The notes under the pieces were generated by a model. The model made no database searches and was not told the origin of the DNA. It saw only the letters and a list, made by a program, of their open reading frames with translations. Below are positions 1 to 63,000 of a stretch of 64,000 nt of DNA, one piece after another. The position numbers and the translations under genes were made by a program. Position 1 is the stretch's first letter. Every line of letters starts with the position of its first letter. The stretch lies in NCBI RefSeq assembly GCF_963678975.1, contig NC_089281.1:8085277-8149276 (forward strand). Direction: 5' to 3'. Source of the DNA: Dysidea avara. Its lineage: Eukaryota > Porifera > Demospongiae > Dictyoceratida > Dysideidae.

Positions 1-4659
<4,659 letters not shown>

Positions 4660-4763
4660 TTTTCCCGCCTCTGCACACCGTGTACGTACAACTGCAGTGA
4701 CTAAGTGACAAGCAAGTTAAAGAGAAAAGAAATATTACGCGGAAGGTGTCTGAGAAGCAATAA

Positions 4764-4788
4764 GCGCATGCGCACGTGAGTGACGTCA
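4764..4788. promoter_or_regulatory. NRF1 palindrome, E-box and CRE cluster upstream of the glucosidase gene
   Basis: Within 25 bp there is GCGCATGCGC (4764-4773, the full NRF1 palindrome), CACGTG (4773-4778, E-box) and TGACGTCA (4781-4788, perfect cAMP-response element). They sit about 105-130 bp upstream of the glucosidase ATG and between it and the NOP2 stop codon (4823). The sites are seen directly; use by these factors is inferred. Confidence 0.6.
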
Positions 4789-4822
4789 GAGCTACACAAT
4801 TAACATTTTAACAAAAATAATA

Positions 4823-6289
4823 CTATGTAAGTTTCTTTAGTTTGGCAATAAAAAACCCGTCCATGTTGTGAACATGAGGGTAGATTCGTTTTGTGTTTGC
4901 CATTGATGGATGAAACCTTCGTTCACGAAACTTGACAAACCCATCTTCACCCACATCTAGTCCAGTGGGTACAATTTTCACTTTGCGCATTTTCAGAGCG
5001 TAATCAATAACACATTCATTCTCTTCTACTAACACAGAACATGTGGAATATATGATGTAACCACCTGAAGAGGAACGTGGATTTACTGAGTCAATTGCAC
5101 TGAGAATTAGTTCACGTTGTAGATGTGAACACCTCTGGATGTCTTTTTCTGTTTTAGATGCTTTCACAGCTGAATCTTTGGAAATAACACCAGTTCCACT
5201 GCAAGGTGCATCTAGCAGCACACGGTCAAAATTCCCAATTACTTTAGGAAAGTTTCGACCATCATAACAACATACAATGGTATTTGTTACTCCCAATCGG
5301 TGGAGATTACCGACCAGAGCCTTTTGCCTTTCTTTGTTAATGTCATTAGCAAACAATATTCCCGTGTTCTTCATTAGTGCAGCAATGTATGAAGTCTTTG
5401 CTCCTGGAGCTGCACACATATCCAACACACGTTCTTTCTCCTGTGGAGCAAGTGCCATCACAGGCATCATTGACGATGCTCCTTGGAGAATATAATGCCC
5501 AGCTAAATATTCTGGTGTGGCCCCAATAGGCACAGAACTATCGTATATCACTAGACCAACTTTAGACCAGGTACCAATTGGGTCAAGATTGACTCCACGA
5601 CTGATCAAGGCTTGAGCTAAATCTCTTCTCCTTGTCTTAAGACTGTTAGTTCTAATAGTTAGTGGCCTTGGGGCTTCATTGGCATCCAGGAACTCCAATA
5701 GCTGAGTAGCAGGTACCAGCTCGATAAACTTTCCAATTAAATAATCACTGTATCCATACTGACTTTTTAGATCGTCTTGGAGCATCTGTAAATATTCACT
5801 TCGTGATTTTCCCTCTTCACACAAGCTCTTAAAATTGCTGAGAATGTACAATATCTCATGCACTCTCTGTCCACCCTCGTCAGTTGTTTTTAGCTCCGTA
5901 TCCACAGGATCTTCTGGTTTATGCTTCTTTTTCTTCCTAGGCTTCGCTGTAGCAATTGCCTCATCTTCTGAATCACTAGTGTGAGCTACTCCAGTAGCTG
6001 TAAGTGAAATTTCTTCATCATCTGAATCGCTATCAAACAAACGGGCCTCTTCTCCATCAGAATCAGACAAGTCTAATTTTAATTTCTTTTGTTGTACCTC
6101 TACGGAGGGCTCCGTAGCATCTCTAGATCTCTTCTTTTTCACGCCAGCCTTCGTGTGTGGCTTGGTCACTCTTTCTTTCCTGCCTTTAAGTTTCTTGCGT
6201 GGTTCTTCAGAGAATGGCGGTGGTTGTTTCCTAGCTTTCCTGCCAGGTCCTCTCTTCCCCAGCTCAGAACGATCTGATTTTCTTCCCAT
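4823..6289 (-). CDS. NOP2: NOP2/NOL1 25S/28S rRNA (cytosine-C5) methyltransferase
   Basis: Single-exon frame of 488 residues. Residues 1-130 are basic and acidic low-complexity sequence (lysine-rich tracts and Ser-Asp runs) as in nucleolar NOP2 proteins. From about residue 150 comes the NOL1/NOP2/Sun domain: SAM-binding LDMCAAPGAKT at 290-299, DAPCSGTG with motif IV Cys at 363, and the catalytic STCS Cys at 417. The C-terminal RRFHPS and MDGFFIAKL ends match the family. Known family role: methylation of one cytosine in large-subunit rRNA and 60S assembly in the nucleolus. At 488 residues it is shorter than the human protein (over 800), mainly through shorter tails. It diverges from ARFGAP1 with 112 bp between the two ATGs. 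Confidence 0.95.
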   Translation of the reverse strand: MGRKSDRSELGKRGPGRKARKQPPPFSEEPRKKLKGRKERVTKPHTKAGVKKKRSRDATEPSVEVQQKKLKLDLSDSDGEEARLFDSDSDDEEISLTATGVAHTSDSEDEAIATAKPRKKKKHKPEDPVDTELKTTDEGGQRVHEILYILSNFKSLCEEGKSRSEYLQMLQDDLKSQYGYSDYLIGKFIELVPATQLLEFLDANEAPRPLTIRTNSLKTRRRDLAQALISRGVNLDPIGTWSKVGLVIYDSSVPIGATPEYLAGHYILQGASSMMPVMALAPQEKERVLDMCAAPGAKTSYIAALMKNTGILFANDINKERQKALVGNLHRLGVTNTIVCCYDGRNFPKVIGNFDRVLLDAPCSGTGVISKDSAVKASKTEKDIQRCSHLQRELILSAIDSVNPRSSSGGYIIYSTCSVLVEENECVIDYALKMRKVKIVPTGLDVGEDGFVKFRERRFHPSMANTKRIYPHVHNMDGFFIAKLKKLT

Positions 6290-15030: not shown

Positions 15031-17222
15031 TTACTGGACACCTAATGGGGCTGTGTTTTCATTGATCATCATGTGTGTGGGTGGTACCTCGAGTTCCTTA
15101 TTTATTTTAGCATGCATGTACTGATGAAGGAGCAGTTTTAGTTCAGTGTTCTGTTGTTTTAACTGGCCTGCCTCCTGAATAAGACCTCTCCGAGATTCCA
15201 GAACAGAGTGGTACTTTTCCAAGCCCATGAGTAAAGCATCGGCAACTTTTTCATGGTCATCTTGAAGTGCACATTTGCTCATATCCTCCCAGAATTTTCC
15301 ATCCAGTAGTTTAGCATTCTTTTGTGTGGAATAAGCCCTAGAAGTTGCAGCAGCTGAGACTGGCTTTGAAAGGTTCTTACGCTGCTCAGCAAATTGTCGC
15401 AGAGCTTGTGCAACATGATTAGGATGGACAAGGGATATCCCCCCATTTGTAACATCATCAGTTCTGTCTGAATCCTCCTCATCTGCCTTTGGCTCCTAAA
15501 ACAGAAATCCCATAAATGGGCCATAATATCAGCACCAATATACAATACACAGGCATTGCCTTTATATCCTTAACAAATAATAATACCCAATATACAATGC
15601 TTACATACCTGTAGGCAGCAATATTCCACTAGCTTGTGAATATCTTCTTCCGTGTCTATCAGTAGTGCCTTAAAAATGGAGTCCAACTTCATCAGTAGCT
15701 GTTCATCCTCATCTAGAGGGGCCAACAGACGGAGCAATTTCTCTTCAATCAGAAAGCCTGATTCTTGGCAGACAAGTTTAAGCGCACGTTGTATCAGACT
15801 TGGTGAAAATTTCCCTTCAACCACAGTGGTGTTACTGTCACCTTCACTAGATAAAATACTGGCTACGTACTGGAGGGCTTGGCTCACAGATTCATTGCCA
15901 TCCTGCACTGTTGTAGCTTGCTGGGCCATGGGACTTTCAGGAAACTCCTGTAACTCACAATCTAGCCCAAGTTGTTGTTGGTAGATACATTTCTCTCCTT
16001 GTTGTACAACTGAGGCTAACTCCTGGACAGTTTCTTCAGCCATCTCCCAAATCTCTTCAAATTTTTTGGCATCAGCAGCTTGAAATAGCTTGTACTTCTT
16101 TTGAAGGTCAGCAAATTGTTGGCTGTTCTTTCTGTACTCTTCTGTAATGGCCACACTTTCAACTTGATATTGTTCTTCCTGTTTTGATAATTTCTTTCTG
16201 AGGTTGGTCAAAACATCTTGCAGCTTTGTGATCTTCCGTTTCTGTTGACTGATTGTTATCATGTTTTCTTCATCTCTCTTTTTCAAGACATGAAAGTTGT
16301 ATTCTAGTTTCTCAGCATTCAGTTGAAAGGTTGCCTTCATTTGCTCAATCTGTTGTTGCAGTGCCTGAATTTCTTTCTCAAATTTCATCATTATCTTTTT
16401 ATACTCCTCAGCATTTTGTTGGCGTAAGTGTTGCAATTGTTGTTCGTGATCATCAATTCGTCTTTCTCGTTCTTTCAAATATTCCACTTCTACTTGTTTT
16501 CTTTTTTCCATTTCTTTGTCCCAAGTGCTGATGTGCTGTCGCAGTAATGCTGCACGCTCAGCCACAAATGCTTTCTCAATCTCTTCCAATTCTTCACGAT
16601 ACCCTCTCATGATTGTCTTCACTTGATCTTCCATTCTTTCTAATATTAAATCCACATCTTCTGCCTGCTTCTTAAGGTCTCTCACATACTGGTCATCTTT
16701 GCTTTTCAATTCTTGTTGGAAGTCATTAATAAGCTTGTCCTTTTCATCTCTCATAGCATCACAAGCTGTCTTTTGCTCTGCTAACTTCTCTTGCAAATCT
16801 TGTGGGATCATTTTAGTAAGTGCCGGTTCCCATCGGCGCATAATCTCTTCAAATCGTTCCACACTGGCATTAGCTTCTGCCTCAAGCTTTTCAAAACGTG
16901 TTTTCTTTGTTTCATCTTCATCTAGTCTTCTCTGTACCTCCTTTGCATCTCCTGCTACTAAAACATTGGTGACTAATTGGGTGCCATCAGATGTTAGCTT
17001 TTCAAGTCTTTGTGTGCTTTCTTCCACTTGTTTCTTACTCCTTCTGTCTTTGTCCACTTCCTTTTCATCGTCTTCTTCTGTGCGAGGTTGTTCACCTAAG
17101 GCCTCTCTCCTAGCGACTTCAATTCGAGTCTTAATCCTATCTCTTCGTATTTGTATCCTCTCGTCTCGACTGTCTGATTCAGAGGTCGCTTGTTCGCCTT
17201 CTTTAGTAGCAGGACGGCTCAT
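15031..17222 (-). CDS. DRC1: Dynein regulatory complex subunit 1
   Basis: Two exons, 15609-17222 and 15031-15495, give 692 residues (human DRC1 about 740). Almost all of residues 1-450 is charged coiled coil, starting with a QIRRDRIKTRIEVARRE helix like the DRC1 N-terminus. The region KKYKLFQAADAKKFEEIWEMAEE and the C-terminal LEKYHSVLESR...LKQQNTELKLLLHQYM...ELEVPPT match DRC1 of flagellates and animals. Known role: scaffold of the nexin-dynein regulatory complex between outer doublets in motile cilia. Its presence implies flagellated cells. The gene is convergent with VRK (86 bp) and divergent from HECTD1 (235 bp). A minus-strand AATAAA at 14872-14877 falls in the last VRK intron, so the 3' ends probably overlap. 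Confidence 0.93.
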
Positions 17223-17457
17223 TACTCTTCAAATAGAACGTACAATGTCCATTAGATAGGAGTGGGTTGTGTGTTGCGCTGGTGCTATGGCAACAAGCTC
17301 TAATTAATGCCCACCAGTACTTGTATTTTAATCCACGTGATAAGAAGCCGCATGTAATGTAATTTCCCGAACTTTTCCTTTTGCCGGTGTTTCACGTTGT
17401 GATATGAACGTGGTGTGAACAGTGTATTAGTTGAAAGAGTGATACAGGACCAGGGGG
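17223..17457. promoter_or_regulatory. Bidirectional promoter DRC1 / HECTD1 with a possible RFX X-box
   Basis: The spacer is 235 bp. GGTGCTATGGCAAC at 17281-17294 has a perfect right half (GGCAAC) and an imperfect left half of an RFX X-box, about 60 bp before the DRC1 ATG. CACGTG follows at 17334-17339. X-boxes mark ciliary genes in animals, so this would serve DRC1 rather than HECTD1. Confidence 0.45.
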
Positions 17458-20400
17458 ATGGCTGAAGTTGATCCAGTGGCTCTTCTTGAGTGGCTACAGG
17501 TCGACCAAGGAGATGACCGCGAAATTCAACTCCTGGCGCTCGAGCAACTTTGCATGATGTTGCTTATGGCTGACAACATTGACAGATGTTTTGAACTGTA
17601 AGCACATCCTCGCTATAAACTACATTTTTATGATGTCAATTTTTAGTTGTCCTCCGCGTATGTTCATTCCTGTCTTGTGTAAAATATTTTTGGACGAAGC
17701 GGCACCTGATCATGTACTCGAGGTCACGGCTAGGTCGCTGACTTATTACCTCGATGTGTCTGCTGACTGTGCCCGGCGACTGGCCTCAGTGGATGGCTCC
17801 TTGCAGGCAATTGTACAGCGAGTGGCCACTGTAACTATTGATAGTAGGCCAAGCAAGGATCTAGCTGAGCAGTGCTCGAAGGTGCAGAGTGTATGCTCAT
17901 AACGTTTCCTTAATATGATGTACTTTAGGTGCTGGAGTTGGCAAGTACACGAGAGTCGGATAAGTTGTTTGAGGCAGGAGCGTTGGCTGTTGTGTTAACG
18001 TTTATGACAGAACATGGAGATAAACTACACAAGGATATCATGCTGTCCTGTATGTCCATTGTAACTAGATTGTGTGGCAGGCTGGAACCGGGTAATGAGT
18101 CATTGGACACTTGTGTTACGGCTTTGTCAAAGCTACTTGAACATGACGATCTGTCGGTATGTGTGTATGGTGTGTGTTGTGCATGTGTGTATGCTCAGCA
18201 AAAAATTATTAATGATTGGAATGTTATCATTATTGCAATGAAGTAAATTGAACTGAGAGTTCATAATATATTATGAGCTCTTGATGAAATTGATAGCGTC
18301 TGTGTTGCAGGTTGATTATCCCATAAAATTGTCACAGTTTTAAGTTGGTTGGTTCATGTCATTGTGGCAGTCAACTGGACTATTGACTTGTAGTACACAA
18401 GTTACATTACTATGGAGACCATTATACTAAAGATACACAACAAATTATCATGTATGCTTCATGGTAAACATCACACCTTGCACACACTGTCATTGTCACA
18501 GTGTGTTGGGTTGTAATAGAATTATTCATTGTTTTATTAACTTAAGCATAAAATATAAGATGACATGGAAAAGTTTGCAATAATTTTCGTAAAACTACAA
18601 TACTCGGAAATAAAATTATAGTTATGAGGCTTAGTATCAGCGTAGAATGTAGTTTGTTGTGACTTGATAGAAATGATAGATGGTTGTTTGTGTATAAGAA
18701 AAGTATTTAGATGTTTTTGTCATATTAGCTGGAATTGAATTGTCATTTTCTTTGTCTGGGTAGAATTTCACAAGTTTCAATTAATTAGTTTTCTTTCTGT
18801 TTCCTATTCTTCATTTTTCTGTACAGATGGTAGAAGGTTCCATTCGTTGCTTTGTAAGTCTTGTGGATCGATTCACTCGTCGTGGTCATAACACAGATCT
18901 CCTCACAAGCAAGGGTCTCCTTACCATTCTCATTGGACGCTTGAGGACTACTCCACCAAAAGGAAGCATTGGAACAAGTGTTGGGCAAAAATCTCCAGTT
19001 CTTCTCACCAGTACAATCATCAACCTGTTAGTAATATTCTGTCGGAGGTCACGGACTGCAACTGAGGTAGGCACCCTGTCTTTGTGTGGGGTAGTGTGTC
19101 ATTGTGTGTGTGTCCTGTTGGTAGGCACTTCTTGCTGCTAATCTATTGGATGCTCTAGCTATTGTGTTGAAGGGAGATGAAAGGTAATAGAAACCATTGA
19201 CATGCGCATTTGTATTATTGACAACTCTGATATACCAACCCATTGAGAGGGATACTGTAGTGTTAATATACACTTGTATTTCAAATATGGTGCCACAGCA
19301 TTTTAAGCAGTGGGAGCACCTATGTTATAAGTGTGCGTGGTGTCCTCATGTTATCTGGCTATTGTATTTATTGCACTTGTGTGCATGTATTCTCATAGAC
19401 ACTATAATTATAGTGCATATATGTATGTGTCTTGTGTAGACCAAATATACTACTGACATCAGTGTAGCATGCTTAATGCACACAAACACATCCACATAGT
19501 AGCGTCACTATGCTTATATTGCATGCACTTTTTCTCAATGAGCACAACACTGCACTGACAAACACATAGTATGCATACCAGATAGTCACACTTGAAACCC
19601 CAGAGGAATCCTTACCATAACAACAGAACCCATATGTACTACCTTTTACAGTTTGTTATTGGGTACACAGCATCCTTTACTCGCTTGTGAGCCCATCAAT
19701 AACTTCTTATGGTGACTGCAGTGGGTTGACCATTATAGAAGTTGAGTTACACATATTTACATACAAAACATCATGATTGTCTCTGAATTGACAACCGATT
19801 CCTTGTAAGTTCTGCCAGCTGGTGTGTGAGAAAATTTTCCCTTGTTAAATCAGCCTTACTATTTGATGATATGGCAGATTATTACATCTTGCAGCCTATT
19901 CTTGTTCTGATGTGAAATGTTAATAGTGGCACTACCTCTGGTACCCCAATCCTTATTAACGAGGCATTGAAGTACACCCTATTGCTATAGATTATCTTTG
20001 TGTGTTCCCATCATGTAGGAATGTCTCGGATGCCTTGCGACTGTATGATGTTTTGTTAGTGATTGCCATTGAAGGTCGTGAAGCCTTGAAGAACCAGGTC
20101 GGTCCCTTTCGCCGGCTGGAGAGCTCCATGTCCGATCTATCCCATCGGCAAATCATCGAGCACATCCGAAGTGGAAACACTGATGAGTTTTTAGATATAA
20201 TGGAAGCTGGTAAGTTTAAAAGATACACAGTATGTAGGCACTCCACATGTATGTAATTCTTATTCAAGGATTTGACATTAACTTTACTGATGATGTGGGG
20301 CAAACACTTCTCAACTGGGCATCAGCATTTGGCACAACTGAAATGGTTGAGTATCTTCTAGAGCAAGGTGCTGATGTTAACAAGGGCCAGAGATCATCTT

Positions 20401-29400: not shown

Positions 29401-32400
29401 CTAGCAAATGTATAAAGGCTTGTCCACTATGTCTGTGCTACCATTGTTCCATTGTACCATTCAACTAGCTTCAGTGTGTAGTGTCAGTAATGTGACCTAC
29501 TTAAGCATGCACCTCTGAATAAAATGTTATTTTTTATACTACACGGCAGCCATGTTTGAATTTTGCTGTTTACGGAGTTTCATGCTCCCTTGTGATTCAA
29601 TGTACTCCTGATATGACATATCAATGTTACGTAACATGTCAATGTAGAGATTTTCTCCATTTAACTATATGTAATACAATCATTAATATATCTTGTTTCA
29701 CTACTGATATTTTGACTTTAATGCCAATGTTCTAAGAAAAATACATAACCATGCTGAAGAATTTATTAACTGATTACAGTAAAGTAGTGTAAAAATTTCC
29801 TTCATTGTCAGAAGACAGGATGGCCGAGTGGTCTAAGGCGCTGGTTTAAGGCACCAGTCACTTTGGTGGCGTGGGTTCGAATCCCACTCCTGTCATTGTT
29901 TTTGTTTGTCTTTTTTCTCCACGTCTAGTTATTTGTTTTTAATCTTTGTTATCCCCAGGTTGCTAAGCAATGGTATGATTATGAGAGGGAGTCGTTCCAC
30001 TACATTCAGTTGGCAAGGCAACCAACTTCTCCACTGGTGTTCCAACATGTAACAGATTTTGACCAAAATGGGATCCTCTACTGGATAGGCACCAATGGCT
30101 GGTAAAGAAGGTAGCCAATGTAATTAATTCTTACTAATCATTTTGTAGTACTGCTGACTGGGTGAACCCAGCAGCGTTTAAACTGATAGCATTGAGCACT
30201 TTGGATGGTCAGTATCTACCTTATGGTAGAATTGAAGATATGGTTGGGCGCGATACTGTTCCACGAAATTGTCACACCAAGGACAACATGTAAGTTTGTT
30301 GTTGAATTGGTGGGGCTTGTGTGTTTTCAACTTATTTGAATCTGTAGCGTGTATGTGTGTTTTTTGTTGTTGTGTTTATTGGTTTGTTGTTTACAGTAAC
30401 GCTTGGTTTACTGTTGATATTGGGCTGCTGGTGATACCAAGTTGTTACACATTACGTCACTCTCGAGGATATGAAGGGTATGTAATTACCTCCCTGTGTT
30501 GGTGTAATTTGCCGAGCTGCATGGTCCCTGTATTTCTGATGTATCAGTGTTGCTGAAGTGTGTACATGATTGTCTATTTGTACAAAAAAATGACCCTCTA
30601 AGTGAACTCTGCTTATCTGTATGAAAGTTCAGGATATGATTGCCACAACCTTGAGGTTAATGTAGCCAATAGTTGATGGTGACTCACTAATAATTAACAC
30701 ATGCTCCATACTCACACACATAAACTTGTGTGCAAAAGAAAAAAGGTTTTTTAAGGACAGGAAATTATACTGCGTCAGTAGTCAATAATTTAACGTAGGA
30801 CTTACCATAATTGAAGCACGTAATCCATTTCACTTTCACATTATTATAGTTTCTGCTCATCAAATTTGATGGTGGGTAGCAATGTTTTGCATATTTCAAC
30901 TTTCAGATCAGCTCTTCGTCATTGGCAATTTCAAGCATCCAAAGATGGTGATAATTGGATCACACTTCAATCTCATGACGATGATACCAGTCTGAATGAT
31001 CCAGGGTGAGCAAGTGGTGTTGTAACATTTTCAACATATCAGTATTATTTATGTTACATTCGGTGAAACAAAATTATTTTTGTGCTGTACACAATCGTAT
31101 GAATTGTTTATTGTGTATGTTGCTGAGTAAGTTAACATGCATGCACCACTGTATTGCAATAAATTGTATACTGGCATTCATATGCACATTATTCCTTATT
31201 AAGGTCCACTGCATCTTGGCCTGTGGAGCCTCCCTCTGATGATACAGAAGGATGGAGGTACTTCAGGATCAAGCAGAACGGGAAGAACTCCAATGGACAC
31301 ACCCACTACCTGTCGCTGTCTGGCTTTGAGATCTACGGTGAAGTGAAGGGCGTGTCAGATAAGGATCTCGGTAAGGTCATTACTATGGGATGTGATGTAA
31401 TAGTATGTCATTATTGTAGGGATGGCAGCAAAGGAGGCCGAAGCTGCTGTACGGAAAATGAGAAAGCACATCCGTCAAAATGTATGAACTAATATCTCAT
31501 CTAGCAGTCACTTTCTTAATAATGCCACGAGGCCATTTGTTTGTCCCCATTAATGAGGTTTCTACTTGTGAAGTCTTCCTGTATGTATTTCCTCTCACAG
31601 GTACTAAAGGACATGGTAGTTGGAGCCAGGGTTGTCAGGGGTGCTGATTGGAAGTGGCGCAACCAAGATGGCCGACCACCTGGAAAGGGCACAATCACTG
31701 GAGAGCTAAGAAATGGTGAGAGAGAAGCAGACCAACAAAAGTTAAGATACTTTGGGACACATGATAGGTTGGATTGATGTGACATGGGACCATGGAGGAG
31801 CTAATTCGTATCGTATGGGAGCTGAAGGACGTTATGATCTGCAACTTGCAGATAATGAGGGTGTGGCTCAGGAACAGGAGACATCTGCAGAGGCATCACA
31901 AAATGAGCAGCAGCAAGAGGTATGCTGAATACTTTTGGGTGGGGAGGGGGTGTGAGCTAGTAATCAGTATGGTACTGTATGTCTTTGATGATTGACCTAG
32001 TAATCACAAGGCTCCAGTGCATTGTTGTTTCCTTCAGCATGAAACTTTGTTTTCTTGTACAAGAAACATTGCTCCAGTCCACTCAGTTGTATTGATGGGA
32101 ACTTAGTGTTAACTGGGAAGCAAATGCCAATTGTCCACGTCTCATATGATGAGTTGTCGCACATGAGACATGGTACAGCCTCCTAGTCCTAACCTCCAGA
32201 GGATTTTCCCTCACTGATTCATACAAAGCACCCAAGTTGTGCTTTTTCACTGGTTATAGACGTGAATGCCGTACAGCATGAGTGTGGGTGTAATAAATTA
32301 TTTACACTGTGGTCATTAACATATATCAATATGCATGAGATCAGTCATGTCAGTGGAAGTTTCAAGAGATCCTGTGTGGGTGTGTTGGTGTGTGTTATCA

Positions 32401-35400
32401 TGTGTAGGTGCTGAACTGAAAATTGCCATTTAACGTGTATGGGGAGGATAAGTGTGGGTGTTTAGGTACCTGGTACAAACCCAAAATTAAAAGCAAGACC
32501 TCATTAATAGAGCCATCGATCTTCATGTACAGTATTTTTGTGTATTAAGCTGCTATCAGTTGCCATGTACATTAACACTGTATGTATTTGAGTAGGTCCA
32601 CATGTTCAAAAATTTCCTTTGTGTCTCACTATCAAGTTTATGTACAGGAACTTTGCTAAATCTAACTATCTGAATAAGAAAGCACAGGTCCCAAGAGATC
32701 TGGGTGGCTTTTTACATATAAAAGAGGAAAACCTCTACATGTATAATGTGCCAAGGACAGACCCAAAACTTCTTTGTTTCACAGTGGCCATTATGGAGAG
32801 GTTCAATTTGTACTATAAATGTATGTCATGTGTTTTTCCTGACAATGTATCATGTAATCGTATAGGCTATCAAGATGGCTTTAAAATATTACTATATATA
32901 ATAGTTTGGGCAGGTGCAGTGGGTGGATGTGGTGTGTCATTTAATGGGGTATACTATCACAAATATTATATTGATTATGTCATCATACAGGATGATTATG
33001 ACTCCAGTGATGATTGTAACGATGCTGCTGATGAGGAGCCACACTTGTTGGAAATGGAGATGGGATCTAGTGAAGATGAGGATGACGTACGTATACATCA
33101 TGTTCTGTATTGACCTTTGATAATACTGCAAGTGTATGATTAAGGTACACTGTAGTCCTGTAACTCAGATTTTTTTTAGCAATGCTACCCCATCCTGTTT
33201 TCATGCCATCCTGCAACAGTGCATACCTCTTGCATACTACCTGATAGCAAGATAAAAAATATCCTGGCATAATGATTTGCCATATAAGGCAGTTTTCGTA
33301 TTATCAAAGAAGAAACCATTCAACTATTGTGCTTTACAAAACAAATGGCTGTTTTTTCTCAATTGAACACTGCATGGTAACTAAAGAAACTTGAGTTTTA
33401 ATACTACCAAAATATTTTGCATTTGATGGTTTAGCCACATCCAATTTGGGCAAATGGTAGCATTTACAAGGTGAATTTCAGTTCTAAATCAATACCACTG
33501 TCCATTCTTTGTGTGGTAACCAAGCGATATAATATAACTGACCTCTTCAATGCTTTTGGTTAACCACCTTGTTCCAGTATATTACCACATGTTTCTATAA
33601 ATAACTATGTGGCTCTACCCACAAAACTAAGACACTCATCCATATATGGTGAAGTATTTGATATGTTACCAAATTTGAATTTGTATCCATAGTAGTTACA
33701 CCTACAGTATTGTAAGAGATAGTGTTAAAACAGAATTACAGGATGTTTGTAAGACAATAACAAAATTGTTTATTAGCAACTGGTGTGTGTAAATATACTG
33801 TCAGGAGGAATAACTAAGGTATTGATTACACACTGGCCTCTTGCAGACCCCTAACTAGTGAAGTACCATTGCTTTAGAAATTTTGATGTCTGTAAGTTTG
33901 TGTCTCAATTACAGCTTGTAAATAAAGCTTCAAAATATAAACTGTAAAGCAGCTGAAGAGTAAGCATTTTCAAATTGTTGTCATTTCTATCTACCTGGGG
34001 AGCCTCCAAGCTACTTACAAACTGAATAATATTGTTTTGTTGCTATGGAAATACAGTGAAACCTGTTTAGCAGGTCACTACATAATAAGGTTACTGGTCA
34101 GTCCACCTTCAAAATTCCCAAAAGACCTGATTCATATACTGCGGTTCTATGAGACCTTGCGCGACAACAAAACATCACGTGCGATAATTATAGTTTGAAC
34201 TTCAAAAATGAATTGATTTGATTGGACGAAATCTTGTACACGTGATTTTCGCTTGTTTTGTTGTCGCGCAAGGTCTCTTAGAACCGCAGTACATAGTGAC
34301 CTGCTTGATGCAAGTCGCCTGCTTAGTGTGGTCAGGAAATTCTGATACAATTAGAGGCAGGCCTTTGTAATGACTTGAGTAAAATCATTGCTATAAAGTT
34401 CTGCTGCTAATAACATTTACATGTATAGCCTTGTTTTCCTGCCTTTTGGAAGTAATTATGACAACCAAATTAGTTAGCAGGCCACCAAACATATTCATAG
34501 CTCTGTTAAGTATGCTTGGGTTAGGGAGTTTGCAAGTGTGGCCAAAATCCCTTACCTTGTCAAGGTAAGCAACTAGTGTAGAACTGTGGAAGAAGCCTTG
34601 TAGTTATTATCTAGAGATTTCAGTTAGTGTTTAAAACTTCTACTTTTATGGAAGAAGCATATGTTCTTTGTTTACTGGTGCTTGACAATATGAATGCCAC
34701 TTCTATTGTATATGATCGTGTCACTTCTATTGTATATGATCGTGTTGGTATGTGTGTCCATGTGAAAACACTTGCCATTCCTTGTGTACTAATGTGTACT
34801 AATGTATTTCTATTGAAATAACATTGTGGAATTCCATTAAAATTGATACAGTGAAATTGAGAAAGGAAGCATGCTTCCTTTCAGTGGTAACTACCACACA
34901 CCACAAGACTATCAACTGTTTTATTATTTAGTGGTCAGTCAAATGACAGGTAGAGGTAAGTAAGCACATGACAAATCTCAATGTTTACTTGCTGTACCAC
35001 TCATTCGACGGGCTTCCTTTGTGTACAAACCATGAGTCAGTTTAGCATGTGTTTTATGCATTTCCTGTGAATTAAAATGATGTAATGAATGTTTCCAACT
35101 AAAACTTTTTATTGTCATTGTTTACTGTATAGGGTGGTGTAGTGTTGTCCCACAAGCGGCGAGCTTGGTTGGATAATGTGATGTTGAAGAGACAGTCCAG
35201 TGCTCTAGTACCGATATTTGATCCACGACCGGGCAAAGCAATCATTCCAACCCTTGTAGATATGCCTATACCTACACCTGGTGTGTTTGTGTGTTGTGTG
35301 TAGCATGCATGTGTGTATGTGTTTGTGTAACGCTGTGTGTCACCCGTAGTGTGTGACCTTTTATAATATAGTAGTATATGTGTCTGGTGGATGTGCAATC

Positions 35401-38400: not shown

Positions 38401-41253
38401 CTTAGGGTTTAATACACAGTATGAAAATTTGATGGGAAAACTATCATGGTTACTCAATTGTCATACAAGAAATTTGCGGGGAACATATTTGTAGTAGTTA
38501 CATATGTAATGTTTTCTACAAGGCCGGAATTGAGTAGAATACTAGGTATTTATTTTGAGTTGATAATTCTTTGTGAAGGCACAGGGGTCTGAGTCTAGTA
38601 TGAACATACACCAATAGTAAGGCTGTATCTTTTTTTTTTTACTGTGATAAAAAGAACAGGTGAAGACATTTGCCTTGTAGTTGGACCTCAATATTCCATA
38701 GTGGTAACTATATTAGACTGTTTGTCCAAAGTAACCATATGCTTTTGGCCACACACACACACACACATGTAGATATTGCCAAATAACAACTTTTCTATTA
38801 TGGGGTATATAAAGCCTATAACTCCTCATTCCAGTGATAGACAGTCTGTCTCTGGGGCTATATAGAACAATAAATTGGTTTTACTGGTTTTATACGTCCT
38901 CACACAGTAAGGAGGTTTCTGTTTAATGGACACAGCTTGTACACATTGCTTTGTGTTTGGTGTAGACAGACAACAGACCTGTTGCTTGTTGGCATAGACA
39001 GCCAATGGTGTAATTAAATACTTTGGAATTTCCTTTGGCTCATTTGTTTATTGCTGCTTTCTTTCCCAAATATAAGGGTGTTTTTTTTGTAGTGTGGTAT
39101 TCTATTTCTCCTGTATATATCCTTCTAACATTTTTATTCACTGAAGTGATGTGTTTCACAATCACAGACCAACAGACTTCTTCACTTTTTAAAGATTTTT
39201 TTTCTTGCAGGTCAATTGTTTGGATTCAAGCTCAGCGGGATAAACAGCTGGAGCAGATGAAAGGAAGCACTCCTCGGAAAGATGAAACCCATGAATATCG
39301 TGTTGGTCGGTTGAAACAAGAAAAAGTTTCAATACCTCGAGGAGACAATGTTAGGATTAAAAATAATTCCATAGGTGTGCTTGCTTTAAAGATTTTTATT
39401 TTAGTTATTAGACTGGTCAGAGATAGTGTTACACAGTCATGCAGCTAAAAAGTCTATGCTAGAGGTGAGGCAGTGGGTGGGGCTCAATTCCTGCATTGCT
39501 CACATGTTGCTGTCAGGTTGAGTACATCAATGAAGAAGGAACAGGACTTGGTCCCTCATTAGAGTTCTACACTTTAGTATCAGCCGAGTTGCAACGACAT
39601 GATCTAGGATTATGGGTGTGTGATGATAATTATCACGACGAGTTGGAAAGAGAGGTACGTGTTTCTTGATTACAATGGCTGTTCAGATTTGTGGTCAGGT
39701 CGATATTGGTGATGGGATGAAACCAGTGGGATATTATGTACAGCGATCATCAGGGCTGTTCCCTGCTCCATACCCACAAGACCATTCCAAGTTGAAACGT
39801 ATTTGTCAGTTGTTTCAGCTACTTGGAATGTTCTTAGCCAAGTGTTTACAAGATGGTCGATTAGTGGATATACCGTTGTCAAGATCATTCTTCAAGTTTA
39901 TGTGTGTTTCACATGCAACAGAAACTGATGATGTTTATCAAATAGAACAATCCATTGAAGAAGGACCAACTAATGAAGACGATGTGAGAGTTGATAGTAA
40001 TATTGACAACCAGACACGATCTGATCAAGAACTTACTGATAAAGAAGTTGCGTTTCAAGAAATGTTACTTGATAGCTCATCTGATAAAATAATGACAGCT
40101 GCTATGGCAATGGATGATGTGTGTGCATCCACTGCAGGAGACCCTGAGAAGGGTGTGGCTGAAATAGAGTCATGTGAGCAAGTACAAAGCAGTACTGTGG
40201 GCTATTCATCATATGAACTACCATGGTATCGTGGCATTTTGGACACACAAGATTTTGAAACTCTTTACCCTCAACATGTAAAGTTTCACCATCAGTTATT
40301 ACAACTAACTCATGAACGTAACAAAATACATGAAAACTCCCAACTGACTGATATTGAAAAATCAAAAGCTGAGGGAGAATTATTATTACAGGTAGAAGGC
40401 TCTGATACTCCTGTAAGACTAGAAGACCTTTGGTAAGTGAAGGCTGTACAAAATTCCACTATCTATATATTACCTTATATAGCCTTTCAATGGTATTCCA
40501 GCCATCCTCAACAGTCTATGGCTATACTGAACACCCATTAATAAAAGATGGAGACAAAGTGGTATGTGAATAACCAAGTATCAATTACAACAAGCATAAC
40601 AATGCTATGTTCATTCCATTCAGGAGTTGAATGTTGGTAATGCTGAACAGTATGTTCACTTAGTACAGGATTTCTGTCTGGATACTGGAATTAGGCACCA
40701 ATTAAATGCTTTCAAGAGTATGTTTGTTATGTTGATAACAATGTGAATGTGACACTTTTTATTCACTCTAGGCGGCTTTTCTCGTGTGTTTCCATTGGAA
40801 AATTTATACTTATTTTCTGCGGATGAACTACAGCTTTTGTTGTGTGGTGACCAGGCGCCTAGTTGGACGAGAGAAGATCTACTACATCACACGGAACCCA
40901 AGAATGGCTACACACGAGACAGCCAGGGCTATCTTATGTTTATCGATGTGGCCATGGATATGGATGCAGATGAAAGAAAGGTACATTGGACATAAAACAA
41001 GCTGTCTTTATTTGTGTTCTTTTTATAGAATTTCATTCAGTTTGTGACTGGTAGTTCTTCACTGCCTCCTGGTGGCTTGGCTAACTTGCATCCAAAATTG
41101 ACTGTTGTACGCAAGCACTATGAAAATGAACATGTCCTACCTTCTGTCAACACATGCGTCCACTACCTCAAGATCCCAGAATACCACAGCAAAGAAATAC
41201 TAAGAGAACGATTACTTGTAGCATGCAGGGAGAAAGGTTTTCATCTGAACTAG
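17458..41253 (+). CDS. HECTD1: HECT-type E3 ubiquitin ligase HECTD1
   Basis: Forty-one exons, 2,444 residues (human 2,610). Exon starts-ends: 17458-17597, 17647-17881, 17929-18156, 18827-19066, 19125-19183, 20019-20209, 20269-20444, 20501-20624, 20871-21135, 22852-23002, 23112-23795, 23861-24289, 25157-25333, 25514-25648, 26029-26175, 26823-26893, 26940-27051, 27255-27389, 29959-30101, 30149-30289, 30397-30477, 30907-31005, 31204-31370, 31420-31481, 31601-31715, 31768-31919, 32991-33086, 35133-35280, 35428-35510, 35590-35708, 35827-36049, 36564-36755, 36819-36946, 39211-39374, 39421-39464, 39517-39654, 39699-40432, 40483-40561, 40624-40717, 40772-40980, 41029-41253. Domains in order: ARM-like helices (1-360), ankyrin repeats (about 365-465), Ser/Glu/Pro-rich insertion (620-830), SUN-like domain (1235-1440), MIB/HERC2 (1465-1555), HECT (from about 1955). 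Catalytic Cys is residue 2413 (NTCVHYLK, codon 41155-41157); it ends KGFHLN. Confidence 0.95.
18157..18826 (+). other. HECTD1 intron 3, nothing recognised
   Basis: A 670-bp AT-rich intron. I see no tRNA, coding similarity or clear inverted repeat. Confidence 0.6.
19184..20018 (+). other. HECTD1 intron 5, repeat trace only
   Basis: An 835-bp intron. The stretch near 19960-19990 (GAGGCATTGAAGTACACCCT) resembles sequences near 7663 and, inverted, 48505, so it is probably a fragment of an interspersed repeat. Nothing else is recognised. Confidence 0.4.
21136..22851 (+). other. HECTD1 intron 9, 1.7 kb, nothing recognised
   Basis: AT-rich sequence without a convincing exon, tRNA or terminal repeat that I can see. 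Confidence 0.55.
23327..23765 (+). repeat. Degenerate coding repeat (SKEPNLES-type) in HECTD1 exon 11
   Basis: About 150 residues are built from 8-11-residue variants of S-S/T-K-E-P-N-L-E, for example [19 protein letters not shown] and [10 protein letters not shown]. The DNA repeats at about 24-33 bp. It lies in the linker between the helical region and the conserved [10 protein letters not shown] block, where human HECTD1 has only a shorter acidic stretch. Confidence 0.85.
24437..25130. mobile_element. TA-flanked MITE or MITE pair with an internal unique segment, HECTD1 intron 12
   Basis: The left end begins CTGTATAGTGAAAAACTTTGG after TA (24435-24436). The right end is its inverted copy, CTATACGG then TA (25131-25132). 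Sub-motifs ACTTTGGCGG and CGCCAAAGT recur in both orientations at 24455-24520 and 24995-25125. The right 138 bp (24995-25132) is a palindromic unit on its own. The middle 450 bp is non-repetitive and holds an open frame on the minus strand. Confidence 0.7.
24525..24842 (-). pseudogene. Open frame carried inside the MITE pair
   Basis: A 105-codon frame on the minus strand. Its middle part ([19 protein letters not shown], then [16 protein letters not shown]) has the composition of a real protein, and a CAG acceptor-like site precedes DYHLYQS. I do not recognise the family. It may be a host fragment trapped between two MITE copies. Confidence 0.3.
26346..26364 (+). repeat. TACTCTAATAGAGCAGTCA repeat fragment
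   Basis: A 19-bp motif in HECTD1 intron 15 that recurs at 28998, 54710 (three tandem partial copies), 60758, 62863, 62906 and 63965, usually with one or two changes. Most likely the tail of an interspersed SINE-like family. Confidence 0.7.
28481..28640. repeat. Tandem duplication, period 80 bp
   Basis: AAACTCTTGGGAATGGTCAGA occurs at 28485 and again at 28565, followed in each copy by a GTACGG/GTACCGG and ACGTAC stretch. The two copies have diverged. Confidence 0.75.
29814..29895 (+). tRNA. tRNA-Leu(AAG)
   Basis: An 82-nt tRNA with a 7-bp acceptor stem GACAGGA/TCCTGTC, A box TGGCCGAGTGG, anticodon stem CTGGT/ACCAG with loop TTAAGGC (anticodon AAG), the long class II variable arm typical of Leu, and a perfect T arm GTGGG-TTCGAAT-CCCAC. 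TTTTT at 29899-29903 serves as a Pol III terminator. It has no intron. It lies on the coding strand of HECTD1 intron 18, 63 bp before exon 19. Confidence 0.95.
33087..35132 (+). other. HECTD1 intron 27, 2.0 kb: MITE and short tandem repeat
   Basis: Contains the 151-bp MITE at 34139, a 24-bp tandem duplication at 34698-34745 (unit ends TATATGATCGTGT), and traces of a GTGAAACCTG repeat at 34059. No exon is seen. Confidence 0.6.
34139..34289. mobile_element. 151-bp TA-flanked MITE
   Basis: Terminal inverted repeats of about 35 bp start CTGCGGTTCTATGAGACC and end GGTCTCTTAGAACCGCAG, with GCGCGACAACAAAA inside each arm. TA flanks both ends (34137-34138, 34290-34291). The size and target site suit a Tc1/mariner-derived MITE. 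Confidence 0.85.
36947..39210 (+). other. HECTD1 intron 33, 2.3 kb, nothing recognised
   Basis: AT-rich, with one short (AC)n near 38752-38766. No exon, tRNA or clear transposon end was found by eye. Confidence 0.55.
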
Positions 41254-41277
41254 TTAATGTACTGTATAGATGTTAAC

Positions 41278-41661
41278 TTATTTTGATCTGTCCCACACAC
41301 ACATGCAAATTCCACATACAACTAAAAATATTCCAATAAAAGTTGTTTTGTTCTGAATTCGTTCACCCAGTAAGTGTCCAGTGAATAAAGTAACTAGCAG
41401 AGTTAGCCAGTTAACTACTGGTACTGCTAAAGATAATTCTGTACTAGCTAGCACGTAGTGGTAAAGGATTGAGCCAGATTGGTTGATAAGGAATGGAATT
41501 GTGTAGCTCCACTTTAGTGCTAGAAACTTGAGCTCCATAAATAGTTGCGATAATCTGTTTGTAGCACGTGTGTTCTCAATCCCCTGGCCACCTCTTTTCA
41601 TCAGAGGGTTGGTTGTTCCCCATAACAACGCGACCACTACGAGTAGACTTGCGTGAGCCAT
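41278..41661 (-). CDS. TMEM234: TMEM234-family membrane protein
   Basis: Single exon, 127 residues, four predicted membrane helices. The start LLVVVALLWGTTNPLMKRGG, the middle IPFLINQSGSILYHYVLAST and the end LLGERI...IGIFLVVCGI match TMEM234 (UPF0546), an EamA-like small membrane protein of unclear function. It is full length for the family. Convergent with HECTD1, with only 24 bp between the stop codons. Its ATG (41659-41661) overlaps the ATG of the plus-strand EF-hand gene by two bases. Confidence 0.9.
   Translation of the reverse strand: MAHASLLVVVALLWGTTNPLMKRGGQGIENTRATNRLSQLFMELKFLALKWSYTIPFLINQSGSILYHYVLASTELSLAVPVVNWLTLLVTLFTGHLLGERIQNKTTFIGIFLVVCGICMCVWDRSK
41335..41340 (+). terminator. 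AATAAA, probable HECTD1 poly(A) signal inside TMEM234
   Basis: First AATAAA after the HECTD1 stop (82 bp). It lies within the TMEM234 coding region on the other strand, so the HECTD1 mRNA should be antisense to TMEM234 at its end. Confidence 0.5.
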
Positions 41662-42839
41662 GGACGAAGAGGAGCAACAGCGAGACGCACTCTGGTGGAT
41701 TAAGGAAAAACAAGCACTCGAGCAACAACTAGCAGAAAAGGATAAAGAAATAACAACGGTGAAATCACGTAATTACGACTTACTCAAACAGGTGGAGGAG
41801 CTTACCCAAAAGTTACAAAAGGTGGGCGCTTATTTTGTCGTTGAAGCCATTTTATAGATTAAATTTAGTTTTTTTTTGTTGTTGACTTATTGAGCTTTGA
41901 ACTCACTAATCGAAGCACTGTATGTGTTATTAGAGTGCTGGCTTGTCCAAGAAGCCACAAAGAAAAGCAAAGCAAAAGCACAAAACAGACAAGACCACCA
42001 CTGGAGGCAGTGGTACAGGCAAACTGTCAACAGAGTCAGCAACTGTTAGCAGTTCAAAGATCAGCATAGCTGAAGACCCAGAACAGTTTTATAAAGTAAT
42101 GAGATTTTTACTGTCTGTTTACTTGGTGGTATTGTTCTAGGAGATTGCTGAAAGATTTCCAAAGATTGCACTGTCTGCTGTTCTCAATGCTGAGAAACGA
42201 TTTGTTGAAGCAGACAGCAATGGCGATGGGGTGAGCCAGACACTGGACCGTCTATAGGAATCCTTCTTGTGAGGATGTGCTCTGCACCATTGAGCCCACT
42301 GGATAACCAATGTGTGACCTAATCCATCTGCAAAGCTTCTTCATGCAGTTGGGGTCAAGAAGTTGGACTGTAGGATCCTAGCATGATATAATGTATTAGT
42401 GACAGAACAATAAAATCAGGTCCAATTTGGTAACAAAAACAGATTTTATGTTGTGAACGTTTTTACCTTTAAAGGAGATTTTGGTCTATACCAAACCATT
42501 GTCTTATGTAAATTAGTGTGTTTTATGCTAGCAGAGGTCATTCTGTGTGTTCCCATATAGACAATTGATGCAGATGAGCTTGAAAAGATGTTAGACCAAA
42601 GCGGGTTGCTATTTAGCAAGAAACAGGCACAAGAAATCTTAGCTACCATAGATATGGATGATACAGGGACGCTGGATTTTATGGAATGTCTGGAGGTACA
42701 AGTCACACAACTAATTGTGTAATTTGCTATAGATACTGCTCAGGTCATTGACAAGATCACTCAAAACAGAGCCACAAATTTACCACAGGTCTTGACAACC
42801 TCAACAGAAGTTAGATCACACCTTTGCACCATTCAATGA
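41660..42839 (+). CDS. Coiled-coil and EF-hand calcium-binding protein, not assigned
   Basis: Five exons: 41660-41821, 41934-42095, 42141-42230, 42561-42695, 42744-42839; all in phase 0, 214 residues. Residues 1-54 are a charged coiled coil (WWIKEKQALEQQLAEKDKE), followed by a Lys/Ser/Thr-rich linker. Residues about 125-180 are an EF-hand pair: DSNGDGTIDADE is a canonical loop, and DMDDTGTLDFME is a second with Thr at position 5. A TGA lies in frame two codons before the ATG, so the start cannot be further upstream without splicing. I do not recognise the family; the EF pair resembles calmodulin-type sensors. The exact acceptor of exon 5 is uncertain. Confidence 0.75.
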
Positions 42840-60061: not shown

Positions 60062-63000
60062 TTAATGATAAACTTGTCTGATATTCATATTAATTCTAGT
60101 AGTATTTAGATATTGTTCAAAATGTTTCCAATTACTTAACAACCATTGATAGTCAAATTTCAATATGTCTGTAAAGTGAAAACCACTTTTGTTATGTTCT
60201 TGTAGACTCAAATCTTCATCAGGATTAACAGTGTGTCTTTCCATCTCAACTAAACAACATTGTAGTTTCTTAATTTGTTGTATTCTTTGACGTAAAGCTG
60301 CTTCAGTTAGACAGTCAGGAACAGATGGGTTTCTAGGAGTCAGTATCTTGGGTACTCCATGGTAAGCCAATCTTGACTGCTGGGACATGACAATAACATC
60401 ACCACTGTGAACAAACAAAGCTGTTGGTTTGATGTCCTTGGTCTGTCCTCCAATAAGGAAAACTGCTGACTGACTGAAACTAAAGTGCAGTAGTGTATAC
60501 TATCATAATAATACAATCACACACAACACACTATACTAAACCACTCTAATAATACAGTCAGGCATTGTGTAGTATTAATTGTGGCTGCACTGGGAAAACC
60601 AGTCTATACCTTCCTATGTAGCTCCATGCTACTTTCTCCAAATGGATTGATTTTTATGCTGCAAATTCTCTCCACCTTCAGCACCACACATACCCCATAT
60701 TTGAGCTATACATTCATGAAATACAAGTCCTCAGTACCTAAGTAAAAATGTAGGGAATACTCTAATAGAACAGTCACATAGAATTTAAAGAGTTGAAAAA
60801 ATTGTCCAGGGTTTGTTTGAACCAGGGGCCTTCTTCACACAAACTCTTCACCACTGAACTGCTGTTGTCAGCTGATCAGTTCACTTAATTTCTACAAATG
60901 AAAATTCTAGCTGAAATCTATTCAGTAGTAAAAGTTATAGATCTACCAATGGAGAATCTAGATTGTTCTACATCATTCTGTGTGTTCTAACATAAGTCTT
61001 TGAAAAAAGTGTGCATTGTATTAGATTATTCCCAAAAATAATTAAATAAAGTTTACTATTGAAAAATCTGTCTCCCATTTTGTGTTTAAATACCTCATAG
61101 TCAGTCAACGGTTTGTTTTTACCCAATTTCTTATCTACAGATACAATGATGATTATACAAATTGAAATCCATACAAACACAGCCAAGCCCTAAAAAGGGA
61201 TGCAGCCTGGGTAAAAAAGTTGTGATGGTAGCCAAGAAATGGCTGCAGTGATGTTAATGCTAAATAATGTTCACAAACTTTTCTACACAGGCTTTTAAGA
61301 CCGCACTTTTTTCACAGCTCGGTTCTTTTTACTATATAAGGTAATGGGTAAACTTCCAATGGACTTACAATGTGTCCTAAAATTAAGTGCATGCACAAAA
61401 AAAAACAAAAAAAACTGATGTTCCTGCCTGGAAGTGAACCAGGGACCTTGAGGGTGTAAGACTCACGTGATAACCACTACACTACAGGAACAACACATCA
61501 TAATGAGTCAAGAGTTGTACTCTAAATTTCTTAGCTAGTCACTTAGTGAGTCATCAACACACTGACTACCCATAGATTAAATGACTACTTTTAAAACATT
61601 ACTTTTACAGAGTAAGTGTATATTCCAAACAGTTAAACTAAGCTCTAAGGGGTTTAAACAAATCCACACTTAAACCAGGTGCACGTCCACAACCGGCTGA
61701 AGGTCAGCTGTGGGTGCATGCCTGGTTTACTAAAATTGCTTTTGCAAAATTTGTGTGAGTGTACCTATCTATCTACTGTTGTTTGTCTGTATGCACCCAC
61801 AAGAGCAAACTCTTTTAGTGGCAAAAGCAGTCAACCTATGAGAATTAAACACTTATGTATCAAACTTCTGCATAGGCACTGAGGCGGTTTCTTTTCATCA
61901 GCAGACCTCTTAGGATACTACGAAAAGCATATCTCATTGACTTGAAGGGGGGTATGTCCCTTACATATGTGAGGGCAGCCTTGAGGATTTGTAGAAATTT
62001 TTTTGGAAAAAACATGATAGACAAACTATAAAACAGTAGAGAAGATACTTATGTGTGTAATATGCAGTTTGTTTGGATAGTGTTTCCTTAGCAATGCATA
62101 GCAACATAATCAGAGGATTACGAACTAATCATGAAATTACAATTATTGTCTTAATTTTGATAATTCTGTATGACAGAAACTTACATTGTTGATTAATTCC
62201 AGCTACATAACTAGCTAGCTGCATGCGCCTGGTTTTTAGAAGCAGCACAACATCAACTTGTTTGGATTACCTGTGTACCTTCAGCAGTAATTTTGGAGTG
62301 TAAGTTGTAAACAGTACAAGCAGTATGATAACATCATTTGTCACTTTTGCTCAACAAAGAGCGAAGAGTTTTAGCATTTCTAAATTCTAATGTCAAATCT
62401 CTGCTAAAAAAAAACAAAAACAAAAAAAACCCTATCATATCGCCACCATTTTATACCACAATACTTAACTCATGTTGTAGCATGTGCCTTTTGGGTTCTG
62501 ACAAGTGTCTACCCTCTGTACCTGTTTCTTCATGCACAATATCATATTGAGGCATCAATTTTCTGCCGTATCGACACTTTCCATAAGGAGCATATTTACA
62601 GATAGATATTTGAGATGCATATGCTAAAAGACATTTGACACCTGTAACTGCACGATAAGCTACACCTCACCCCTTAATAATCTAGTCAGACCAAGCACAA
62701 AAACCACACCTTTTAATGGCCTAATTGTTTGAACATGGTGACCACACCCATTAATGATCTAGTGGTACTTATAAACAGTGACCACACCCTTTCGTTAGAA
62801 TAGCTGTGCTTATGATAGCATAACAAAAGAAAGTGCTGTGACCACGTCTCTCTCACCCAAAATACTCTAATAAAGCAGTCACCCTAATACAACAGCCAGG
62901 TATGATAATCTAATAGAACAGTCACATGTGTATATCATAGCTATATGCTATAATTTAAGGGATAAGAAGTAGTAAACAAAAGATACGAATGATGATATAG

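Follow-up and report, generated by a model that had tools for sequence, protein, structure and literature searches.

Start codons of a TMEM234 gene and an EF-hand gene overlap on opposite strands at a common CATG in the sponge Dysidea avara

In a stretch of 64,000 nucleotides from the genome of the sponge Dysidea avara (contig NC_089281.1, positions 8,085,277 to 8,149,276; hereafter the window, numbered from its first letter), a TMEM234 gene on the minus strand and an EF-hand gene on the plus strand diverge from a single CATG. The start codons of both genes overlap there: the ATG of the EF-hand gene occupies 41660-41662 on the plus strand, and that of the TMEM234 gene 41661-41659 on the minus strand. 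This overlap of two opposite-strand start codons is real and unusual. A preliminary description of the region, made from its letters, had stated that the two divergent starts share bases of a CATG and that the plus frame carries a TGA two codons further upstream. Direct reading of the sequence bears out both statements, since bases 41654-41662 are TGA GCC ATG, with the in-frame TGA at 41654-41656. In neither gene does the reading frame contain a further ATG ahead of the start within the exon that bears it. The coordinates of the features discussed here are collected in Table 1.

The predicted TMEM234 protein matches the Pfam family PF10639 (TMEM234) over the full profile, positions 1-113 of 113, with residues 7-122 (E = 3.2e-39), and its score of 133.9 bits stands against a curated cut-off of 30.1. 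The N-terminus had been described as aligning with the family from its first residue; this is not literally so, as the Pfam alignment begins at residue 7. A downstream start was nevertheless rejected, because the next methionine is residue 21 and initiation there would remove the beginning of the PF10639 profile. Upstream of the ATG the frame stays open for 37 codons, to 41772, and that stretch contains no ATG. A search of the source genome (550,814,596 bases), which scores best candidates only, reported no second TMEM234 locus. The proposal that TMEM234 is a retrogene set beside the promoter of the EF-hand gene is therefore not supported, as no second locus was reported that could be its parent. 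No relatives of TMEM234 were confirmed among viral contigs or contigs of GTDB genomes.

The EF-hand gene was modelled on the plus strand from 41660 to 42795, as five exons with GT-AG splice sites throughout, which encode 203 amino acids. Residues 126-183 of the model match PF13499 (EF-hand_7) with 36.7 bits, at a curated cut-off of 30. Thus, the genes whose start codons overlap both carry Pfam matches, with EF-hand exon 1 itself being modelled only. A downstream start was rejected here as well: the second methionine is residue 148, within the EF-hand pair. Judged by the positions of the domains and of the methionines, the earlier view that both starts are real has good support in the case of TMEM234 and reasonable support in that of the EF-hand gene. 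In the source genome, the 501-bp locus and the EF-hand protein matched only themselves at E ≤ 0.001, again in searches that score best candidates only; the protein search was not very sensitive, because other EF-hand genes, which must exist, went undetected.

In order to place this arrangement among other CATG sites, we counted those from which open reading frames (ORFs) of at least 60 amino acids run both ways. There is one among the 377 sites of the window and three among the 1063 sites of a 200-kb genome sample (20 stretches of 10 kb); ranked by the shorter arm, the best pairs among these 1063 sites measure 62/63, 61/97 and 60/1148 amino acids. Since the two rates are equal, 60 amino acids is not a distinctive threshold. 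With the lengths actually observed, 65 and 127 amino acids, the count is 1 of 377 in the window and 0 of 1063 in the sample, and none of 100 first-order simulated 64-kb sequences held such a pair. ORF length is itself a modest argument for both starts, and the domain matches are the stronger one.

The frequency of paired ORFs in the sample (three sites, hence not rare) would be in line with an error in the gene model, in which the first coding exon of the EF-hand gene lies elsewhere, the ORF at 41660 is incidental and only TMEM234 begins at the CATG; exon 1, moreover, has no homology support. However, this exon is a frame of 54 codons with a coiled-coil-like heptad pattern (of the seven registers, the best has hydrophobic residues at 10 of its 15 a/d positions), it closes at a good donor and it is in phase with exon 2. 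Exon 2 also requires a coding exon upstream, because a TAG (41931-41933) stands directly before its frame. We thus consider such an error very improbable.

The arrangement is explained best, and in our judgement probably, as a tightly packed head-to-head pair in which one CpG-rich bidirectional promoter would lie within the coding DNA of both genes and the leaders would be mutually antisense. CpG dinucleotides are depleted in the window (observed/expected ratio 0.34; 0.40 in the genome sample), and they peak over the CATG. The 150 bp at 41627-41776 contain 11 CpG at an observed/expected ratio of 1.4, tied third among the non-overlapping 150-bp segments of the window, and with non-overlapping segments of 200 and 300 bp the stretch of the CATG and exon 1 ranks fourth and sixth, respectively. 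A 300-bp segment with the CATG at its centre holds 13 CpG, as compared to a median of 3, and this number is reached by 2.3% of 300-bp segments in the 64 kb. Outside the peak, below 41500 and above 41850, there are 0-2 CpG per 100 bp. Other gene starts have similar values per 300 bp: 12 for a NOP2-like gene, 14 for an NYD-SP28 gene, 11 for a HECT gene and 14 for a bZIP-like gene, while at least 11 CpG are found in 5.3% of the window's and 9.6% of the sample's 300-bp segments. The NOP2-like and NYD-SP28 starts lie in ORFs with Pfam matches (RsmB/F-type methyltransferase and NYD-SP28, respectively), and the HECT and bZIP-like starts were placed by eye; a start region near 4660 was left out of this control, having been found through its own CpG peak. 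As the peak covers both the TMEM234 codons and EF-hand exon 1, the promoter would be coding DNA if the peak marks it. The preliminary description had concluded that the promoter must lie in coding DNA, and the position of the peak, which spans the 5' codons of TMEM234 and EF-hand exon 1, supports this indirectly.

We infer the position of the promoter, the transcription starts and the overlap of the leaders from the sequence. According to this proposal, a single bidirectional promoter at about 41550-41830 would extend over the CATG, hence inside both coding regions. The EF-hand mRNA would arise from rightward initiation by RNA polymerase II inside the TMEM234 coding region, the TMEM234 mRNA from leftward initiation inside EF-hand exon 1, and the 5' leader of each would run antisense to the opening codons of its partner gene. 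Ordinary scanning would then reach the shared CATG on each strand without meeting an upstream ATG. On the plus strand the last ATG before the one at 41660 is at 41493, and on the minus strand the last one before 41661 is at 41850; ATG-free leaders are possible up to about 166 nucleotides for the EF-hand gene and 188 for TMEM234. A G-box, CACGTG, at 41565 also speaks for this reading, and the motif recurs at 17334 between two other divergent starts.

Several observations weigh against the embedded promoter and its antisense leaders. Among 3880 segments of 300 bp from the genome sample, 5.98% also reach 13 CpG. The G-box CACGTG is a common motif, with 16 copies in the window where 6.3 are expected, and the genome sample has 2.2 per 10 kb. 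The context of the TMEM234 start is weak at position -3 (T). When the lack of upstream ATGs was compared with synonymous recoding, P was 0.068 for the first 54 codons of TMEM234 and 0.75 for EF-hand exon 1 (joint 0.05). The entire TMEM234 coding sequence (CDS) is low in CAT (2 as compared with 6.3; P = 0.022). The lack of ATGs is therefore not special to the part that would serve as leader, and ATGs are likewise missing from 5 of 24 other coding blocks of 54 codons. Upstream-ATG depletion was thus rejected as proof of antisense leaders, since by both the recoding and the coding-block control it is too weak. In a stronger form of the proposal, selection would keep the CATG as a dual start within a wholly coding promoter, each gene would hold the start codon of the other in place, and the complementary leaders would couple the expression of a membrane protein to that of a calcium-binding protein; this we regard as improbable.

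It had also been argued that each mRNA must either be nearly leaderless or carry a 5' untranslated region (UTR) antisense to the other coding region. A third possibility, a spliced leader, is missing from this dichotomy, and acceptor-like sites are present on both strands. In that case one or both mRNAs would start further out, a short non-coding 5' exon would be joined to an acceptor closely upstream of the CATG, and the promoters might lie elsewhere, while the overlap of the start codons would remain. The acceptor-like sites fall in the top 0.7% (plus strand) and in the top 1.3% and 2.0% (minus strand) of the 7824 AG sites of the window, and the top intron candidates, 41370-41604 on the plus and 41805-41692 on the minus strand, have the donors GTAAGT/GTAAGC. 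However, under our splice-site models, which are crude, 7.7% and 9.0% of 600 random sites give intron candidates that score equally well. The symmetric leader introns are thus indistinguishable from chance. The modelled EF-hand introns themselves have weak acceptors, hence acceptor strength is no guide, and the CpG peak lies on the CATG rather than at 41250-41370. Spliced leaders are a serious alternative, though to us a rather unlikely one.

Leaders might, on the other hand, be very short, with both transcripts beginning about 10-20 nucleotides from the ATG, as in short-5'-UTR genes of the TISU (translation initiator of short 5' UTR) type. The extended TISU motif around the ATG is SAASATGGCGGC. 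The contexts here are GAGCC-ATG-GACG and CGTCC-ATG-GCTC, neither of which fits that consensus, and we hold very short leaders to be quite unlikely.

Table 1. Features at and around the shared CATG (positions in the window).
Feature	Position	Strand	Remarks
HECT ubiquitin-ligase gene, last coding stretch and stop	41029..41253	+	convergent with TMEM234; Pfam HECT
TMEM234 CDS	41278..41661	-	single exon, 127 amino acids and stop; Pfam match
CpG-rich stretch, proposed shared bidirectional promoter	41550..41830	.	over both 5' coding ends; inferred
G-box CACGTG	41565..41570	.	within codons 31-33 of TMEM234; 90-95 bp upstream of the EF-hand start codon
Acceptor-like site, candidate spliced EF-hand leader	41605..41606 (first exon bases)	+	55 nucleotides upstream of the ATG
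CATG common to both start codons	41659..41662	.	read in the sequence; CDS overlap 2 bp
EF-hand exon 1	41660..41821	+	start codon to donor; coiled-coil-like; modelled, without homology support
Two acceptor-like sites, candidate TMEM234 leader	exon from 41728 or 41691	-	67 and 30 nucleotides upstream
EF-hand exon 2	41934..42095	+	modelled
EF-hand exon 3	42141..42230	+	modelled
EF-hand exon 4	42561..42695	+	modelled
EF-hand exon 5, to stop	42733..42795	+	modelled

On its other side, TMEM234 converges with the HECT gene, and the stop codons of the two are 24 bp apart (41254-41277). Both of the first candidate poly(A) signals past the HECT stop, at 41335 and 41384, fall within the TMEM234 coding sequence. 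For TMEM234 itself, the closest leftward poly(A) signal has its left base at 41007, just before the last HECT exon. Because of this spacing of stops and signals, together with the shared CATG, the TMEM234 transcript probably overlaps its neighbours at both ends. The closest PDB match of the last HECT exon is TRIP12, and no relatives of this exon were confirmed among viral contigs or contigs of GTDB genomes.

Further observations concern the HECT gene and the rest of the window. The large HECT gene, which we take to start at 17458, would form a second divergent pair: a gene of the sperm-tail family NYD-SP28 runs leftward from 17222, and the HECT gene would run the opposite way from its putative start at about 17458; 235 bp separate the two starts, and a CACGTG is at 17334. 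A marked AT skew of -0.282 at 16001-18000 lies mostly over the leftward NYD-SP28 gene. Within the span assigned to the HECT gene there are a tRNA-Leu (AAG; 29814-29895, plus strand) and a CpG-rich segment at 34142-34291 (11 CpG, observed/expected ratio 1.84, two CACGTG), the latter possibly an internal promoter or a nested gene. Another CpG-rich segment, 4506-4887 with CACGTG at 4773, is found where about 160 bp separate the NOP2-like ORF from the leftward ORF next to it, and a tRNA-Val (TAC) is encoded at 61417-61492 on the minus strand. The names NOP2, HECTD1 (the HECT gene being HECTD1-like) and bZIP are our presumptive assignments. Pfam gave no match for the putative first exon of the HECT gene or for the bZIP-like peptide, and PDB none for the latter.

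Start codons that overlap on opposite strands have a parallel in the microsporidian Enterocytozoon bieneusi, for which the excerpted report describes two potential sets of opposite-strand ORFs with start codons overlapping in different frames (PMC2607024). According to the same excerpt, that genome has a gene about every 1.1 kb and each ORF set includes at least one hypothetical protein, whereas the sponge pair has one well-defined conserved family and resides in an intron-bearing genome of 550.8 Mb. A further comparison is with the bidirectional promoters of the sponge Amphimedon queenslandica, in whose compact genome head-to-head genes are very common, 11,379 such genes having starts within 1 kb, and G-boxes are reported to be four times commoner in bidirectional than in unidirectional promoters (PMC4773876). 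Close divergent genes, C and G contents that increase around the starts and G-box motifs are common to both cases. However, the Amphimedon promoters were, by that account, defined by mapped 5' UTR ends, and the pair described here is known from sequence alone and has zero intergenic space between its two coding regions. Human divergent overlapping protein-coding genes, which are likewise head-to-head, tend to be co-expressed (PMC6746723); overlap is defined there on whole genes, and the excerpt does not describe CDSs that meet at shared starts.

In the titles and beginnings of abstracts that we surveyed, no animal example of overlapping start codons in divergent genes appeared, and we make no claim of absence. 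By a rough estimate made for that other sponge, if the start-to-start offsets in so compact a genome were spread evenly over 1 kb, a few pairs could be expected at any given offset, this one included. The CATG pair is likeliest an extreme case of ordinary tight head-to-head packing, and it probably does not represent a novel type of system. Should the transcript ends agree with our proposal, this would be a clean natural example of a promoter that has hardly any non-coding DNA to itself, or none, as nearly all its bases double as codons of one gene or the other. It would then offer a direct test of how densely genes can be packed in a genome that is this large and has introns, as well as a direct test of whether start codons become locked together through their common bases.
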